In this document: positions 3,736 through 49,590 of the stretch, one piece after another
Layout: each line of letters opens with the position of its first letter
How positions within the stretch are numbered: the stretch's first letter is position 1
Assembly (NCBI GenBank): GCA_937957915.1
Contig: CALGNZ010000047.1
Span: forward strand, 186,001 to 250,000
DNA: 64,000 bases
Origin: an uncultured Granulosicoccaceae bacterium
GTDB taxonomy: Bacteria > Pseudomonadota > Gammaproteobacteria > Granulosicoccales > Granulosicoccaceae
Direction of reading: 5' to 3'
Translations under genes and position numbers: made by a program
The notes under the pieces: model-generated
What the model was told of the DNA's origin: nothing
Database searches by the model: none
Seen by the model: only the letters and a program-made list of their open reading frames with translations

Positions 3736-6561
3736 TCAGGTAAAACGACGTGTCTCGCCACTGCCATCTACATTTTCGATGCAGCGCCCGCACAGTTCAG
3801 GGTGGTCCGGGTTCTGGCCTGTCTCGGGCCGGTGGTGCCAGCAACGAACACACTTTGTGTGTGGCGAGGCGCCAGTGGCAACCCACAACTCACCAGTTTC
3901 TAACTCGGCATTGACAGCAGTGGCAGGTTTGTCACCGAGAGAATGAACGGTGGCATCGGACGTAATGAGAACGAATCGAAGTTCATCTTCGAGCCTGGTC
4001 AGGAGCGCTTGCAGATTTTGGTCGCAGTAGAGTTGAACCTCGGCATCCAGTGACCCGCCGATTGCACCGTCGACACGTAGTTTTTCCAGTTCTCGCGAAA
4101 CGGCGATTCTGACTCGTACGATCTGATCCCACTCGTCATTGCTGAACAGTGAACTGTCGCTCAGCGGCTGTAGTCGGTCGTAGTAGGTTTCGGTGAATAT
4201 AGTTTCAGTATGCTCGCCAGGCAGGTTTTGCCAGATCTCCTCGGCGGTAAAACTCAACACAGGTGCTATCCAGCGAGTCATTGCTTCGGCGATATGATAC
4301 ATCGCAGATTGCGCTGAGCGTCTTGCCTGGCTGTTCGCCTGCGTTGTGTATTGCCGATCCTTTACGATGTCCAGATAAAAACCACCGAGCTCTGTTGTAC
4401 AGAAGTTATGCAGTCGCTGGTAAACCGTATGAAACTGGTAGTTTTCAAAGGCTTCCTGAATGTCGTGCTGCAGGCTGAGTGTACGATCAACTGCCCATTG
4501 ATCCAGCGCCAGTAGCTCATCATTTGCAATCAGGTCTTTTTCCGGATCAAAGCCGTTCAGGTTGGCAAGTAAAAAACGCATGGTGTTTCGTATCCGTCGG
4601 TACGAGTCGGACATACGATTGAGTATTTCGTCAGAGACACTCATCTCACCACGGTAATCCGCTGAGCATACCCACAGCCGTATGATGTCGGCGCCGAGTG
4701 TCTTCATTACTTTCTGTGGCGATACGACATTGCCTACCGACTTGGACATTTTGCGACCGTTTTGGTCTACCGTGAACCCATGCGTTAAAACCTGCTTGTA
4801 GGGCGCGATACCATTGATCGATACGCTGGTCAGCAAGGAAGAATGAAACCAGCCACGGTGTTGATCGGAACCCTCAAGATACATATCGGCCGGGTATGGC
4901 TGCCCGCGTTGCTGTAGTACGTGTGAGTAGGTCGTGCCTGAATCGAACCAGACGTCCAGTACGTCGGTGGCTTTGTCATAGTCGGCGGCATCGTCGCCAA
5001 GGAAGTCCTCGATGCCCAGATCAAACCAGGCTTGAATGCCCCCTTCTTCTATATGCTGTGCGGCGCGTTCAAGCAGATCGAGCGTGTCCGGATGTAACTC
5101 CCCTGTTTCCTTGTGTACGAACAGTGTAATGGGTACGCCCCAGTATCGCTGCCTTGAAATACACCAGTCGGGACGTTTGGCGATCATGCCGTCAATTCGT
5201 GCCTCACCCCAGGCAGGCACCCAACGTACTGTCTTGATTGCGGCCAGAGCGTCGCGTCGCAGGTTTTCTTTTTCCATGCTGACAAACCATTGAGGTGTGG
5301 CTCGAAATATAATGGGAGTCTTGGTACGCCAGCAAAACGGATAGCTATGTTGAAATTTTTCACTGAGCACCAGCTTGCCGCCTGACGTTAGTTCTTCGAG
5401 GATCGCACCTTCAACCTTGTACACGTGCTGGCCGGCAAATTTCTCGACATAGCTTTCATAGGTACCGGTTGCACTGACACTGTTTAACAGGCCCAGATCG
5501 TATTTGACGCCGGTGTAGAAATCGTCGACACCATGGTCCGGTGCGGTGTGGACAGCCCCTGTTCCTGCCTCTGTGGTGACATAGTCGCCCATCACTAACA
5601 GCGACGTTCGCTGATAAAAAGGATGTTGTAGCTGTACCTTGTCGAGTGCTGCACCGACAAAAGTCGCCACTGTGTCGTAATCTTCGCACTGGTAGCGCTT
5701 CATGCAGCTATCAACAAGATCAGTTGCAAGGATGACGGCCTCTTCACCCAGACCCAGATTACAGCGTACCACTGAGTATTCGAGTTCCGGGTGCAAGGCG
5801 ACACCAAGATTGCCAGGCAGCGTCCACGGAGTGGTGGTCCAGATGACAATCGATAGCGGCAACTCAGTGTGTGAGCTGCCAACGGCTTTGTGCAGGGCGT
5901 CGTTGTCGGTAGCGCTAAATCGAACGTCCACCGAAGTGGAAGTTTTATCTTCATATTCCACTTCTGCCTCTGCCAGCGCCGAGCGCGCGCCAACGCTCCA
6001 GTAGACCGGTCTGGTGCCCTTGTAGACATGACCGTTTTTTATCATTTGCCCGAGCGCACGCACAATGCCTGCCTCGTTTTTAAAGTCCATTGTTAAATAG
6101 GGGTTATCCCATTCACCAAAGATACCCAGGCGTTTGAAGTCGTTACGCTGTCCATCGATCTGTTCAAGGGCATACTCGCGGCAGCGGGCCCGGAAGGTGG
6201 CCTCGTCGATGTCCTCTCCGGGCTTGCCTATATCAGACTCAACCTTGTTCTCGATGGGTAAGCCATGGCAGTCCCAGCCCGGAATGTAAGGTGAGTTATA
6301 GCCATCGAGCTGGCGACTTTTGACGATCATGTCTTTGATGACTTTGTTGACGGCGTGGCCGATATGAATATCGCCGTTCGCATACGGAGGGCCATCGTGC
6401 AGAATAAACGTCTTTTCCCTGTCCGCCGACACAGATCGAATCTTTTTATAGATATCCATCTGCTCCCAGCGCGCGAGCATTTCTGGTTCGCGCTTGGCCA
6501 GATTGCCACGCATTGGGAAATCAGTTTTCGGAAGGTTCAGAGTTGTTTTGTAGTTACTCAC
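3736..6561 (-). CDS. ileS: Isoleucyl-tRNA synthetase
   Basis: A 941-residue class Ia aminoacyl-tRNA synthetase that charges tRNA-Ile and edits valine. The HIGH-type motif is in [14 protein letters not shown] near residue 58 and the KMSKS motif in [11 protein letters not shown] near residue 605. The inserted CP1 editing domain includes [11 protein letters not shown]. The C-terminal zinc site is CVRCW followed by CGRC. It begins with GTG (6561) and no strong Shine-Dalgarno sequence is visible. The gene lies 33 bases after ribF and 41 bases before lspA, the classical gammaproteobacterial order. Confidence 0.98.
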
Positions 6562-24866: not shown

Positions 24867-26270
24867 TCAGGCGGCTGCAGCGTTTAATGCACGGCTGCGA
24901 AAGCCCAGGCTGGCGGCCAGTCCAGGTTGATTGTCAGCCAGGCGCAGCTCAGCACCATGCATGCGGGCCACGGCCTGCACGAGGCTCAGTCCGAGACCGT
25001 TGCCCGGAGACTTGCGCTCGTGCTCAAGCCGCACAAATCGCTGCAATACACGGTCTCTCTCATGTCGCGGTATACCCGGTCCATTGTCTGTGACGGTAAT
25101 GGTGAATTCATCGTCATTGCCCGACAGATAAATGCCAACGGCGCCGGTGACGCGGGTGTACTTAATCGCATTGTCGAGCAGGTTGGTGATCGCCTGTGCA
25201 AGCAAGTGGCGGTTGCCGTAAAACAGCGGGTTGGAATTGATTTGTTCAATGAAATTCAGATTGGCATCCTCGGCAACCGCACCGTACAACTCGGCTATCT
25301 CGGCTGTCAGATCACCCATCTTTACGTATTCCCATTCAGTTTTATCCAGGCCAGCCTCAAGCCGCGCAATACTGAGCATAGCGTTGAAGGTGTGGATCAT
25401 ACCGTCGGTTTCGTTGATTGATGACTCGATGGTGTCGCGATATTCGTCGTCGCTGCGATTTTCCAGTAACGTGACTTCAAGACGGTTACGCAAACGGGTT
25501 AACGGGCTGCGCAGATCGTGTGCGACGTTGTTGGTGACCTGCTGCATGCTCTCCATCAGATCTTCAATTCGGGTGAGCATCTGATTGATCTTAACAGCGA
25601 TGGCATCGAATTCGTCGCGGCGTTCGGTAACCGGAATGCGTCTGGACATGGCGCCACTCATGATTTCACCGGCGGTTTTATTGACCGACGCAATGCGACG
25701 CAGCACGCTCATACTCATCCAGATACCACCGAGTACGGCGAAAATCAGAGTAATAACCGTTGCCCCTACGACCAACGCAAAGGTGTAGTCAAGCAGTGCT
25801 TTTTCGTCGCTGACCTCGTGTCCGATAGTCAGCTTCAGTCCGTTTGAAAACTGAGTTTGTGCAACCCGGACTGGCAGTAGCGTGCGCGGGCTGTCGGCGG
25901 GCAGGTCAACGACGTCGCCCATTGGTTTGGTGCTGTGAGTGCGAACCGATTTGATGCGCAACGGCCATTCCTGATCACCGCCGTCGGTGATGTCGCTGCC
26001 CTCGCTTTCGAGATAGTAGAAACGGCCATAGGTATCGACCTGATTGCGCTGTTGTATGGCATCGAGCAACTCGGTTAGCGCGCCGGATTTATAGAGGTTG
26101 ACCAGAAAGTCGGTTTCAAGCCGGAGACGTGCGTCGACCTGAGATTCAATCTCGTCACGCAAAGACCAGTAGATAAAACCGAGGGTAACTGCGGAGAACA
26201 GGCTGAACAGTGCCGCATAGATTATGGTTAAGCGAAAAGCTGTGGTACTAAACAGGCGTATGTCCATCAT
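24867..26270 (-). CDS. Membrane sensor histidine kinase
   Basis: 467 residues: an N-terminal membrane helix (LTIIYAALFSLFSAVTLGFIY), a periplasmic domain of about 130 residues, a second helix (VVGATVITLIFAVLGGIWM) and HAMP. The HisKA phosphoacceptor is in NNVAHDLRSPLTRLRNRLEV, and HATPase boxes are NLLDNAIKYT, VTDNGPGIP and GNGLGLSLVQAV. It follows its response regulator after about 150 bases, on the same strand. The signal is unknown. The pair diverges from a DegP-type protease gene, which suggests an envelope-stress role by context only. Confidence 0.93.
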   Translation of the reverse strand: MMDIRLFSTTAFRLTIIYAALFSLFSAVTLGFIYWSLRDEIESQVDARLRLETDFLVNLYKSGALTELLDAIQQRNQVDTYGRFYYLESEGSDITDGGDQEWPLRIKSVRTHSTKPMGDVVDLPADSPRTLLPVRVAQTQFSNGLKLTIGHEVSDEKALLDYTFALVVGATVITLIFAVLGGIWMSMSVLRRIASVNKTAGEIMSGAMSRRIPVTERRDEFDAIAVKINQMLTRIEDLMESMQQVTNNVAHDLRSPLTRLRNRLEVTLLENRSDDEYRDTIESSINETDGMIHTFNAMLSIARLEAGLDKTEWEYVKMGDLTAEIAELYGAVAEDANLNFIEQINSNPLFYGNRHLLAQAITNLLDNAIKYTRVTGAVGIYLSGNDDEFTITVTDNGPGIPRHERDRVLQRFVRLEHERKSPGNGLGLSLVQAVARMHGAELRLADNQPGLAASLGFRSRALNAAAA

Positions 26271-36586: not shown

Positions 36587-39325
36587 ATGAAACTGATTAC
36601 ACGCTTGCTGTTAGGACTGATTGCCGTGGTGGCGACCCTGTTCATTGCAGCGGCGTTTATTGTCAGCACAATCGACCCTGCGCAACATAAAGATCGTATC
36701 CAGCAATTTGTGTTTGATCAGACCGGTCGCACGCTGGAAATTCGTGGTCGCGTCGAGGCGCAGTTATTCCCGTGGGCCGGATTTTCCCTGCGAGATGTCA
36801 CCCTGTCTGGTGCGGAAGGCTTCTTCACAGAAAATTTCGCACAGATCAGACAGGTCGATGCGCGTCTGCGCTTCCTGCCACTGATTGTGGGTAGCGTCAG
36901 TATAAGACATGTCCATTTGCAGGGGCTTGAACTCGACCTGCAGCGCAATCTTGAGGGTCGAACAAACTGGGATGACCTGATGTCCAATACATCGGTTGTC
37001 ACCACCGATGTATCAAACGACGATGTTCTGCAGGAGATCGAGGCTGGTACGCCGGTCGTAGCAGCGCTGTCGGTCGGTCAACTTGTTGTGTCAGACAGTA
37101 TCGTTCACTGGCGCGACGAAATGGCTGACAAAAAATTCCTCCTGTCTGATTTTCGCTTATCAGCCGGCGAGGTTACATTGACCGAGCCCTTTCGTTTTGA
37201 CACCGGCTTTGTGGTTAACGGGGTGGCCGGGTTCCCCATCACACAATTGAGCGCGTCTGGCCTGGCAGGCATCGATCTGGCCGAGAATATCTACCGTGTC
37301 GATTCGTTTCAGGTGGACTCGGTGCTTACCTTCGCCAGCAACGATAGCCCGGCAGACGCTAGTTCAATTGAAACGGAGGCTGGTAAGTCCCCTGAACAGG
37401 AGATCGCTGATCCGAAACTCACAGCGCGATACACTGGATCGGTGGTCGCTGACCTGAGCGCGCAGCGTGTGGATTTTTCCCCGTTGACGCTGGCTGTAGA
37501 GGGTGTTGTTCTCAGTGGCGAGCTGCACATGACAGATTTGCTGCAAAACCCGGGTGTATTCGGGCACATTGCCAGTGATGCCAGTGACGTTGCTACCCTG
37601 CTGGAAACGCGGGGTGTTGTGTTGCCCGACACCTTTGATCGAACGCTGTTGCAAGACTTCAAACTGTCAGCAAATTTTCAGCGCGCTGACGAAAACTTTC
37701 TGATCAGCGATGTCAGTTTAGGCAATCAGCACGCGGCGTTAACCGGTAATTTTCAGATTGCCAACTTCCAGCGTGCGCCAGTGTTAACCGGAACGATCAC
37801 CAGCAATAACATCAACCCCGCTCTGTGGGCCGACGCAATCGGATATACCCCGTTCGACAAGACGGCGCTGACCAAGGCCCATATCAGTGCAGACGTTCGT
37901 CAGTCAGGTCAGTTACTGGTACTCAATGACATTGCGTTAAAACTGGATGACAGTACGGTCAGCGGTGATATCGAGTTGGTAAAAACCGACGATGGCCAGT
38001 ATCCGGTGCGCTTTGAGCTACAGGCAGACAGCCTTAATTTTGATCGGTATTTTCGCGGTGGCATTGATATCGATGGGCTGGCGGCTTTAGCTGATCGTGC
38101 TGATCTGGATCTGCCGGTAGAGACGATTCGTGCATTGGATATACAGGGAAAGCTGACGGCTGCACAACTGCAATGGTCAGGGATGCAGTTCACCGAAGTG
38201 GCTTTGCCGATACGCGTTGCTGAAGGGCGGGTCGAGGGGCTGGAAATCAAGGCGACAACCTATAAGGGTACATTGTTCACTTCTACGGTTCTTGATGTGA
38301 CACCCGATGAACCCCTGTTAACTGCAACAGTAAGTCTTAATGCCGTAGATCTGAACCCAATGTTGGATGCCGCATTGCAGGGCGAGGCTGCCTTGTCCGG
38401 TACCGGTATTGTTAACGTCGACTTGTTAAGTCGTGGCAGCACAGTGGCCGAAATGGCTGATCGCGCAGGTGGCGCTTTAAATGTACGAATCACCGATGGC
38501 GCTATTGATAACGTTAATCTCGCTCATGAATGGGTTACCTTGTTATCTGCCTACCTGTTGCCGGAAACTAATGATCAGACCGTCGTTGAAGCTGAACCTG
38601 GACAGTCATCAGAGCGTAATGCGGCGTCTGGGGCGTCGCCCGGTTCAACTGCCTTAACCGCTAATCAAAAAACCCTTATCAATGAGTTGAGTATGTCGTG
38701 GGAGCTTGCTGATGGTCGTCTGTACAGTAACGATCTGGATTTGCGTTCTGTCGGTATGAACCTGTCAGGGCAGGGCAGTATTGCTCTTGCAGAGCAGTCC
38801 ATTGATTATCTGTTGCAGGTGGCTTTTACAGAAGACGCGGTCGATGCAGCGGCCGATACCATCGATTCTGTATTAGCGCCAACACATAACCGAATGGTCG
38901 GTATGACAGTGCCCCTGGTTATTCGCGGGTCGGTAAAACCATTGCTAATTGACTTTATTGCTCGCCTCAATGAGTCACTGCAGGCGGAGTTGCAAAAGCC
39001 GGATATCTTCGGGTCGACGATCTCTGATTCAGAAACCACGGGTGCCGACGTCAGCACTGACACACCACTCGATATCGCCGTAGTGAAGGATCGACTGCTG
39101 CAACATAATGCAGAGGCTGAGACCGCGCTGAATGCGCGTCTGGAAGCGGTGCGTGATGCAGAGCAACAGCAGCAAAACCGGGTAACGCCGGTAGAAGAAG
39201 ATGTAGAGGCGTCGAATAGCATCAATGAACAGATTCAGCGCGAAACAGATGAGCTAAAAAACCGCCTGCAAAATAACCTGCAGAAAGATCTACAAAGAAA
39301 ACTCTCCAATCTCACTGAAGATTAG
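36587..39325 (+). CDS. AsmA family protein
   Basis: A 912-residue envelope protein. A single N-terminal membrane helix (LLGLIAVVATLFIAAAFIVS) is followed by the AsmA start FDQTGRTLEIRGRVEAQLFP and WAGFSLRDVTLSGAEGF. The C-terminal AsmA region includes LSMSWELADGRLYSNDLDLR and LSGQGSIALAEQSIDYLLQV. AsmA-type proteins bridge the periplasm and are linked to phospholipid transport and outer-membrane assembly. The last 90 or so residues are a Gln/Glu-rich predicted coiled coil. It is followed 16 bases later by mutY, as often seen in gammaproteobacteria. Confidence 0.92.
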   Translation: MKLITRLLLGLIAVVATLFIAAAFIVSTIDPAQHKDRIQQFVFDQTGRTLEIRGRVEAQLFPWAGFSLRDVTLSGAEGFFTENFAQIRQVDARLRFLPLIVGSVSIRHVHLQGLELDLQRNLEGRTNWDDLMSNTSVVTTDVSNDDVLQEIEAGTPVVAALSVGQLVVSDSIVHWRDEMADKKFLLSDFRLSAGEVTLTEPFRFDTGFVVNGVAGFPITQLSASGLAGIDLAENIYRVDSFQVDSVLTFASNDSPADASSIETEAGKSPEQEIADPKLTARYTGSVVADLSAQRVDFSPLTLAVEGVVLSGELHMTDLLQNPGVFGHIASDASDVATLLETRGVVLPDTFDRTLLQDFKLSANFQRADENFLISDVSLGNQHAALTGNFQIANFQRAPVLTGTITSNNINPALWADAIGYTPFDKTALTKAHISADVRQSGQLLVLNDIALKLDDSTVSGDIELVKTDDGQYPVRFELQADSLNFDRYFRGGIDIDGLAALADRADLDLPVETIRALDIQGKLTAAQLQWSGMQFTEVALPIRVAEGRVEGLEIKATTYKGTLFTSTVLDVTPDEPLLTATVSLNAVDLNPMLDAALQGEAALSGTGIVNVDLLSRGSTVAEMADRAGGALNVRITDGAIDNVNLAHEWVTLLSAYLLPETNDQTVVEAEPGQSSERNAASGASPGSTALTANQKTLINELSMSWELADGRLYSNDLDLRSVGMNLSGQGSIALAEQSIDYLLQVAFTEDAVDAAADTIDSVLAPTHNRMVGMTVPLVIRGSVKPLLIDFIARLNESLQAELQKPDIFGSTISDSETTGADVSTDTPLDIAVVKDRLLQHNAEAETALNARLEAVRDAEQQQQNRVTPVEEDVEASNSINEQIQRETDELKNRLQNNLQKDLQRKLSNLTED

Positions 39326-48174: not shown

Positions 48175-49140
48175 ATGTCGTACCTGAACCTTAGAATACT
48201 CGGGGCGCAAGTAGTTCCGGTCACCAGTGATTTTTTGGGTAGCGTAGCACTCCACAGTGCCGATACTGATAGATCCGATAGCGGGTTTTTAGTTCTACCG
48301 CTGCAGAATGGCTTATACGGATCTGATAACCAGCATCAAATGTTAAGCCTGAGTCGGGGAGATCTGCTTGTGTTTCCAGGTAAGCGCACAGGCTATCTGA
48401 GCACGACACTCAATCCGCCGGCGGAGTTGTTAAATGGTGCCCCTGGCTCTGCCTGTGCAGACCAACGAAACCCGCGCGGGAGTTCACCTGACAATGTAAT
48501 CAGTGTTGATCAATTAACCGGAACCGCGGGTGCTGTCATAGAGCAGTTGCAGGCGGTTATCCTGAAGGTTCAGTTGTGTGAAATTGTAAAAGGAGGTGTC
48601 GGTGACTTTCTGCCTGACTGCTTGCTGCTGACACCGCCCGACAGTAGAAGATCCTATATTATTTCTATTGGCGAACAACTGGCAAAAATTGCCAACCACT
48701 CAGAAGATATTAACAAGGCAAAAGTAGTGAGGTTCACAGAACTTTTGTTAATCGAGGCGCTGGATTTATTTCTTAATCAGGATTCGACAACGAGTCGATT
48801 GATGGCAGGCAGCAAAAACCCGCGCATCGGTGAGGCTATAAGAGCTGTTCATGATAATCCTGAGCAAAACTGGACGGTGTCGCGGCTCGCTGCAATTGCG
48901 AATATGTCTCGTTCTCTGTTTGCCATTCAGTTTAAGGAAGCCTGTGGGGAAACACCATTGAGGTATGTCAGGCAATGTCGAATTCATCGAGCGAAGCTTT
49001 TACTGACGGAATCAGTCGCACCCTTAGAACAGATTGCTGATCAGTGTGGATATGCCTCGCAGTCTGCGTTTATAAAAGCGTTCAGCGAAGCGATTGGCTA
49101 TTCGCCCGGGCGTTGGCGAAATCTGCAAAAAAGCAATTGA
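48175..49140 (+). CDS. AraC family transcriptional regulator
   Basis: 321 residues. The N-terminal 190 or so residues fit a cupin-like sensory domain (SDSGFLVLPLQNGLYGSDNQ, LLVFPGKRTGYLS). The C-terminus has both helix-turn-helix motifs: WTVSRLAAIANMSRSLFAIQ and LEQIADQCGYASQSAFIKAF, ending in YSPGRWR. It is divergent from the membrane-protein gene at 47212-48051 and so may control it. The effector is unknown. Confidence 0.93.
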   Translation: MSYLNLRILGAQVVPVTSDFLGSVALHSADTDRSDSGFLVLPLQNGLYGSDNQHQMLSLSRGDLLVFPGKRTGYLSTTLNPPAELLNGAPGSACADQRNPRGSSPDNVISVDQLTGTAGAVIEQLQAVILKVQLCEIVKGGVGDFLPDCLLLTPPDSRRSYIISIGEQLAKIANHSEDINKAKVVRFTELLLIEALDLFLNQDSTTSRLMAGSKNPRIGEAIRAVHDNPEQNWTVSRLAAIANMSRSLFAIQFKEACGETPLRYVRQCRIHRAKLLLTESVAPLEQIADQCGYASQSAFIKAFSEAIGYSPGRWRNLQKSN

Positions 49141-49210: not shown

Positions 49211-49230
49211 TACTGTATATAAAAACAGTA
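49211..49230 (+). promoter_or_regulatory. LexA (SOS) box overlapping a -10 element
   Basis: TACTGTATATAAAAACAGTA matches the E. coli LexA consensus (CTGT-N8-ACAG, with flanking TA/TA) at 18 of 20 positions. A TATAAT -10 hexamer (49229-49234) overlaps its right end, the classic arrangement for LexA repression. The first codon downstream is 45 bases away (49276). No -35 element close to consensus is seen. Confidence 0.85.
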
Positions 49231-49275
49231 TAATAATGCCGATCTTCATCAACTTGCTGAGAATACGGGAGCCGC

Positions 49276-49590
49276 ATGAGCCTGACAGAGTCGCAAGAGA
49301 AGTTCATCGAAAAGGTGTTGTTGTCTATTCCCAGAGTTATTAAGGCCTGTGCTGAGCAGGGAGGTAAGGCGTCACTGATTCTGGGCCGAAAACAAGTAGG
49401 TAAACACATCATAAAGGTGAGTGTTGTTGCGGAGCGTGAGCAGAGTTTTAAAGCGCCGCTGCAAAGCTATTCAGATAAAACACCTGCCGACTCGGTTTTA
49501 AAAGTGACCGTCGCCGGAGATACCAGTAAGGCTCAAACTGTACACAAAAATCATCGGCGCAGCAGTCGATGGCAAAAGCCCGTATTTTAG
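49276..49590 (+). CDS. Small protein of unknown function, predicted SOS-regulated
   Basis: 104 residues, with GGGAG placed 5-9 bases before the ATG. The N-terminal half looks helical (LTESQEKFIEKVLLSIPRVI), the middle is strand-rich (HIIKVSVVAEREQ), and the C-terminus is basic (KNHRRSSRWQKPVF). No membrane segment, signal peptide or known domain was recognised. It does not resemble SulA, UmuD, RecX or DinI. The LexA box just upstream predicts induction by DNA damage. It stands alone, between the AraC gene and the convergent truC. A cell-division inhibitor or DNA-repair accessory role is only a guess. Confidence 0.75.
   Translation: MSLTESQEKFIEKVLLSIPRVIKACAEQGGKASLILGRKQVGKHIIKVSVVAEREQSFKAPLQSYSDKTPADSVLKVTVAGDTSKAQTVHKNHRRSSRWQKPVF

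Follow-up and report, generated by a model that had tools for sequence, protein, structure and literature searches.

A predicted LexA-repressed orphan gene and its family of helix and beta-hairpin proteins in the Granulosicoccaceae

A 104-codon gene in a 64,000-nucleotide stretch of DNA from an uncultured Granulosicoccaceae bacterium (hereafter the window) is almost certainly a member of the LexA regulon, as judged from its upstream sequence and that of its relatives. Since its near-perfect LexA box has counterparts before most relatives across the Granulosicoccaceae, the family very probably represents genuine, undescribed proteins of the DNA damage response. The best explanation as a whole, that of a LexA-repressed, lineage-specific SOS gene whose product has an accessory role at DNA or repair complexes, is held with a little more than even confidence. 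Its supports in the sequence are the box, the matching class of the host LexA, the conservation of the box and the fold prediction.

Operator, promoter and gene

The sequence TACTGTATATAAAAACAGTA is found at positions 49211–49230 and is identical at 18 of 20 positions to the E. coli LexA consensus TACTGTATATATATACAGTA, which was used for scoring; both CTGT/ACAG half-sites are intact. The features of the region are as follows.

49211..49230, + strand: SOS operator (LexA box) identical to the E. coli consensus at 18/20 positions, kept before homologues
49229..49234, + strand: TATAAT, probable −10 element read from sequence, overlapped over 2 bases by the LexA box (right end)
49267..49271, + strand: GGGAG, probable ribosome-binding site read from sequence, 4 bases 5′ of the ATG at 49276
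49276..49590, + strand: 104-codon gene of an uncharacterised, putatively LexA-controlled family; domain at residues 1–57, disordered basic tail ending RWQKPVF

Recomputation thus gave the same result as an earlier note on this DNA, which had described the 18/20 match, the two half-sites, the overlapped perfect TATAAT and a good GGGAG site before the gene. The box is separated from the gene by 45 bp (49230 to 49276), and the promoter scan displayed no good or consensus −35 element before 49229–49234. When the window was searched with a degenerate form of TACTGTATATAAAAACAGTA, allowing up to 3 mismatches, the only match was 49211–49230 itself (a palindrome, found on both strands), with 0.02 matches expected per window. 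Three exact CTGT-N8-ACAG cores are present elsewhere in the window, at 6419–6434, 26240–26255 and 38315–38330 (0.86 expected in all).

The open reading frame starts with the ATG at 49276, and its stop codon ends at 49590. Sequence comparison indicates that it is a real gene, because homologues are 36–42% identical over the full length and have the C-terminal motif R-W-(H/Q)-K-P-(I/V)-F in common with the window protein. Upstream is an AraC-type regulator gene (48175–49140) in the same direction, and downstream a pseudouridine synthase gene (50316–49630) that is convergent with the 104-codon gene; therefore the box can serve only 49276–49590. The gene is monocistronic.

No family of Pfam, NCBIfam (E up to 1), PHROGs or PADLOC matches the 104-aa protein. 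SulA models (PF03846 and NCBIfam) show no match to it at E up to 1, DinI, UmuD, RecX and YebG were not detected in a Pfam scan of the window protein and two relatives, and an Rfam search revealed nothing. The earlier reading of the protein as unlike any known SOS gene is thus confirmed for these collections.

LexA and other SOS genes of the host genome

The host genome is a Granulosicoccaceae draft of 5.38 Mb, 89% complete. It encodes one LexA, with a standard LexA_DNA_bind domain (PF01726, E 9.4e-25) and an S24 peptidase domain (PF00717), and its lexA gene carries its own box, TATTGTATATAAACACAGTA (17/20), 57 bp 5′ of the ATG. The motif class of the host LexA, which had been proposed as a check, is thus the same as that of the window site. 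Boxes of this class also adjoin dnaE2 (TACTGTATAAGTATACAATA, 17/20) and lie upstream of a radical-SAM gene of the PA0069 family (TAGTGTATAGATATACAGTC, 17/20). These three genes resemble the 104-codon gene in operator, promoter position, genome and LexA, but belong to known families, whereas the 104-aa protein has none. The site at 49211–49230 is the best match genome-wide to the search pattern, a ranking that is only indicative because the pattern was modelled on this site.

The usual arrangement of these SOS genes is a lexA-imuA-imuB-dnaE2 cluster. It is split in the host: lexA is followed by imuA and by a gene which, from reading its sequence, we take to be imuB-like (L110:524-4032), and dnaE2, with a box to itself, lies on a separate contig (L006:1-1498). 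The recA gene (L114, G000:C27:88578-89363), unlike lexA and dnaE2, has no recognisable LexA box in roughly 1.5 kb upstream. A second strong LexA-like box of the same genome, AACTGTATATAATAACAGTA, is found at L002:1501-1520 (G000:C90) on the other strand of the contig. An open reading frame of 104 codons and without a Pfam family (1526–1840, + strand) begins 5 bp after this box, and it is possibly a second orphan SOS gene.

Distribution and paralogue groups

A domain profile search detected the family in 36 of 48 Granulosicoccaceae genomes, with 1–3 copies each and up to three copies per genome in the genus of the window, which differs from Granulosicoccus. It was not found in the other 12 genomes, some of which are incomplete. 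Outside Granulosicoccaceae, 369 genomes of the class yielded one weak match (L037, E 6.5e-6), and a sample of 398 genomes of the phylum revealed no relative beyond the host genome itself. The match is a lone distant relative at about 1480–1720 in another family of the same class, and there is no LexA box within 600 bp of it. Thus the family appears, from these searches, to be undescribed and specific to the Granulosicoccaceae lineage, and present almost nowhere else. A mobile or phage origin was also considered; it is not supported, because searches of plasmids, phages and viral contigs gave no relative of the 104-aa protein.

Three groups are seen within the genus of the window in a domain tree that is weakly resolved (65 columns). 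Group I is the window type, and most of its members have a tail ending in RW[HQ]KP[IV]F. Group II consists of N-terminally extended frames, and group III of minimal paralogues of 61–76 aa with little positive charge. Many pairs within the family are less than 35% identical.

Conservation of the box

A LexA-like box with no more than one core mismatch is found upstream of 44 of 51 distinct members (52 were listed, one of them a duplicate fragment). The distance from box to start is mostly 8–12 bp or 25–55 bp and differs between groups, and one or two scored boxes lie far from the start (176–275 bp). All 26 members of groups I–III (genera g1 and g5) display the box. The seven members without a recognisable box are all in the Granulosicoccus-type branch; in one of them, listed both as L094 and as L065, the right half-site is kept and the left is degenerate.

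As an unbiased control, all 256 palindromes of the form h-N8-rc(h) were counted in the 200 bp upstream in 52 regions. CTGT-N8-ACAG is found in 31 of the 52, and the runner-up palindrome in 3; in dinucleotide shuffles the mean for CTGT-N8-ACAG is 0.15 and the maximum 2. It should be noted that kinship among members inflates these palindrome counts, but identities are often below 35%, the spacing varies between groups and the neighbours are unlike those of the window. The gene neighbours of the window are not common to the relatives, and the box is present through changed neighbourhoods and in three paralogue groups; thus the box travels with the gene. The neighbourhoods give no functional clue, those in Granulosicoccus being generic. 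The presence of the box before orthologues, a check named in the earlier note, is therefore borne out in most members, and together with the match in LexA class it leaves the proposal of a new SOS effector well supported at the level of regulation, about as firmly as sequence evidence allows.

It is very improbable that the gene lies outside the SOS response, with a box that is either incidental or an operator for some other repressor whose palindrome is similar. In favour of this reading, seven family members have no box, and the SOS link is a prediction from sequence. Against it stand the 31 regions with the palindrome, compared with the 0.15 expected, and the box of the same class that the host LexA has before its own gene. 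In Vibrio cholerae, the near-consensus LexA-like box of nrdA shows that such a site can fail to bind LexA (PMC5963079).

Between the box and the start codon, 11 family genes of groups I and II have a conserved leader, GTCAGYGCAGCYRC (L011, L012, L013, L014, L015, L016, L031, L032, L073, L077 and L078; alignment A6). For most of the carriers, pairing is conceivable between its GCC(A/G)C part and a GTGGC-like stretch of the ribosome site, and the leader may possibly serve in translational control. The window copy lacks it.

The leader bears on the possibility that the product is, like TisB or SymE, a toxin or growth-slowing protein induced by damage, with the paralogues as diversified copies. 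Such a protein would be small, orphan, lineage-specific, multi-copy and tightly controlled, as this family appears to be, and pairing of GTCAGYGCAGCYRC with the G-rich region of the ribosome site would resemble that of translationally controlled SOS toxins. However, the 104-aa protein has no evident membrane segment and no family match, no antitoxin gene or antisense RNA was recognised nearby, and the leader is absent from the very copy in the window. A toxin is thus considered improbable.

Predicted structure

An AlphaFold2 model was made from 15 sequences, the alignment consisting of the window and related-locus sequences with the closest relatives of the genus left out. It displays a helix (residues 5–28) and two strands (31–41 and 44–53) with pLDDT above 90, followed by a disordered tail, and a distant member is modelled with the same helix and beta-hairpin. 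Structure prediction, also among the checks proposed, thus gave a confident helix and beta-hairpin with no clear known fold. The proposed profile search against PDB returned matches at chance level only, and Foldseek found nothing at E below 0.001 in PDB and viral models.

In the VIA comparison of the window model the best match is NRF1 (Z 4.3, rmsd 4.5, 53 aligned), with several MADS-box domains at Z 2.9–3.9; MADS-box domains are not listed for the second model. The likeness to NRF1 and to MADS-box proteins (MEF2, SRF), which are dimeric DNA binders, consists of a helix followed by a beta-hairpin (Z 2.9–4.3). However, the Z scores are too low to indicate kinship, the rmsd is mostly 4.5–6.8 Å, and the helix of the window protein is not basic. 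The likeness is taken as a common arrangement that gives no sign of kinship.

Most members have a basic hairpin (up to +6); Arg/Lys-rich tails, e.g., RRRPRKR, are also frequent. Because the helix and hairpin unit is open in the model, we infer that it would suit a dimer.

Possible roles

SulA is small, induced in the SOS response and tightly controlled through a LexA box, and it offers a possible functional parallel, as does ImuA, which is described as a paralogue of RecA that is inactive and has kinship to SulA (PMC3765255). There is no sequence match between either of them and the 104-aa protein, which is predicted to form a helix and hairpin and not a RecA-like fold, and ImuA is present separately beside lexA in the host. 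Matches to PF03846 are found in 29 of the 48 family genomes, one in each and always in frames of 227–318 aa. As SulA they were rejected: those inspected are ImuA beside lexA, with NF033429 above its cut-off and the SulA models far below theirs. True SulA therefore appears, from the sequences at hand, to be absent from Granulosicoccaceae genomes, and this leaves room for a substitute.

The family could be such a substitute, an SOS division inhibitor of the lineage in which an unrelated protein, made only upon damage, would take the role of SulA and stop septation until repair is done. In addition to the apparent lack of SulA, the near-perfect box suggests tight repression, which is typical of costly products such as those of sulA and tisB. 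However, a division inhibitor would not usually have two or three LexA-controlled paralogues in one genome, as are found in the genus of the window, and the family was not detected in a quarter of the genomes searched. The known non-SulA inhibitors YneA, SidA and SosA are membrane-anchored, and no membrane segment is evident here. A division inhibitor is thus considered rather unlikely. The wider idea, that a lineage without SulA draws its SOS checkpoint or repair effectors from an unrelated soluble helix-hairpin family, expanded to several LexA-controlled paralogues in each genome and unlike any known SOS protein in fold and mechanism, is marginally more credible but still doubtful.

With several paralogues per genome, and none found in 12 genomes, the family looks more like an accessory than a lone checkpoint. 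The role preferred here is that of an accessory acting on DNA or on repair complexes, followed by division inhibition and then by a toxin. LexA bound at 49211–49230 would cover the −10 element and block transcription; upon damage, RecA filaments on the DNA would promote LexA self-cleavage, and the gene would be switched on. The product would be a small, soluble protein with a helix and basic beta-hairpin of about 55 residues, probably a dimer, and a flexible, usually basic tail. Through hairpin and tail it may bind DNA, a DNA-protein complex or a partner within one. Taken by itself, action on DNA or repair complexes is a tentative assignment, drawn from charge and a weak fold resemblance, and the low positive charge of group III speaks against it.

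Significance

Any SOS response depends on effectors, which either hold back division or work on damaged DNA, and the choice of effectors differs by lineage. In V. cholerae, regulon studies show that unknown genes are still being found in SOS regulons (PMC5963079). PA0922 of P. aeruginosa, a LexA-regulon gene divergent from dinB, is known from regulon studies (PMC8944484) and is similar to the 104-codon gene in LexA control, which is predicted for the latter. PA0922 is set beside the family by description, and the class and phylum profile searches gave no outside relative except the one weak match.

A literature search found no SOS study of Granulosicoccus or Granulosicoccaceae. The family described here would be an undescribed effector family, linked to the SOS response by a strong comparative signal and not by a single box. 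Through this family the SOS programme of the marine Granulosicoccaceae becomes directly testable, and there is a concrete candidate for the replacement of SulA.
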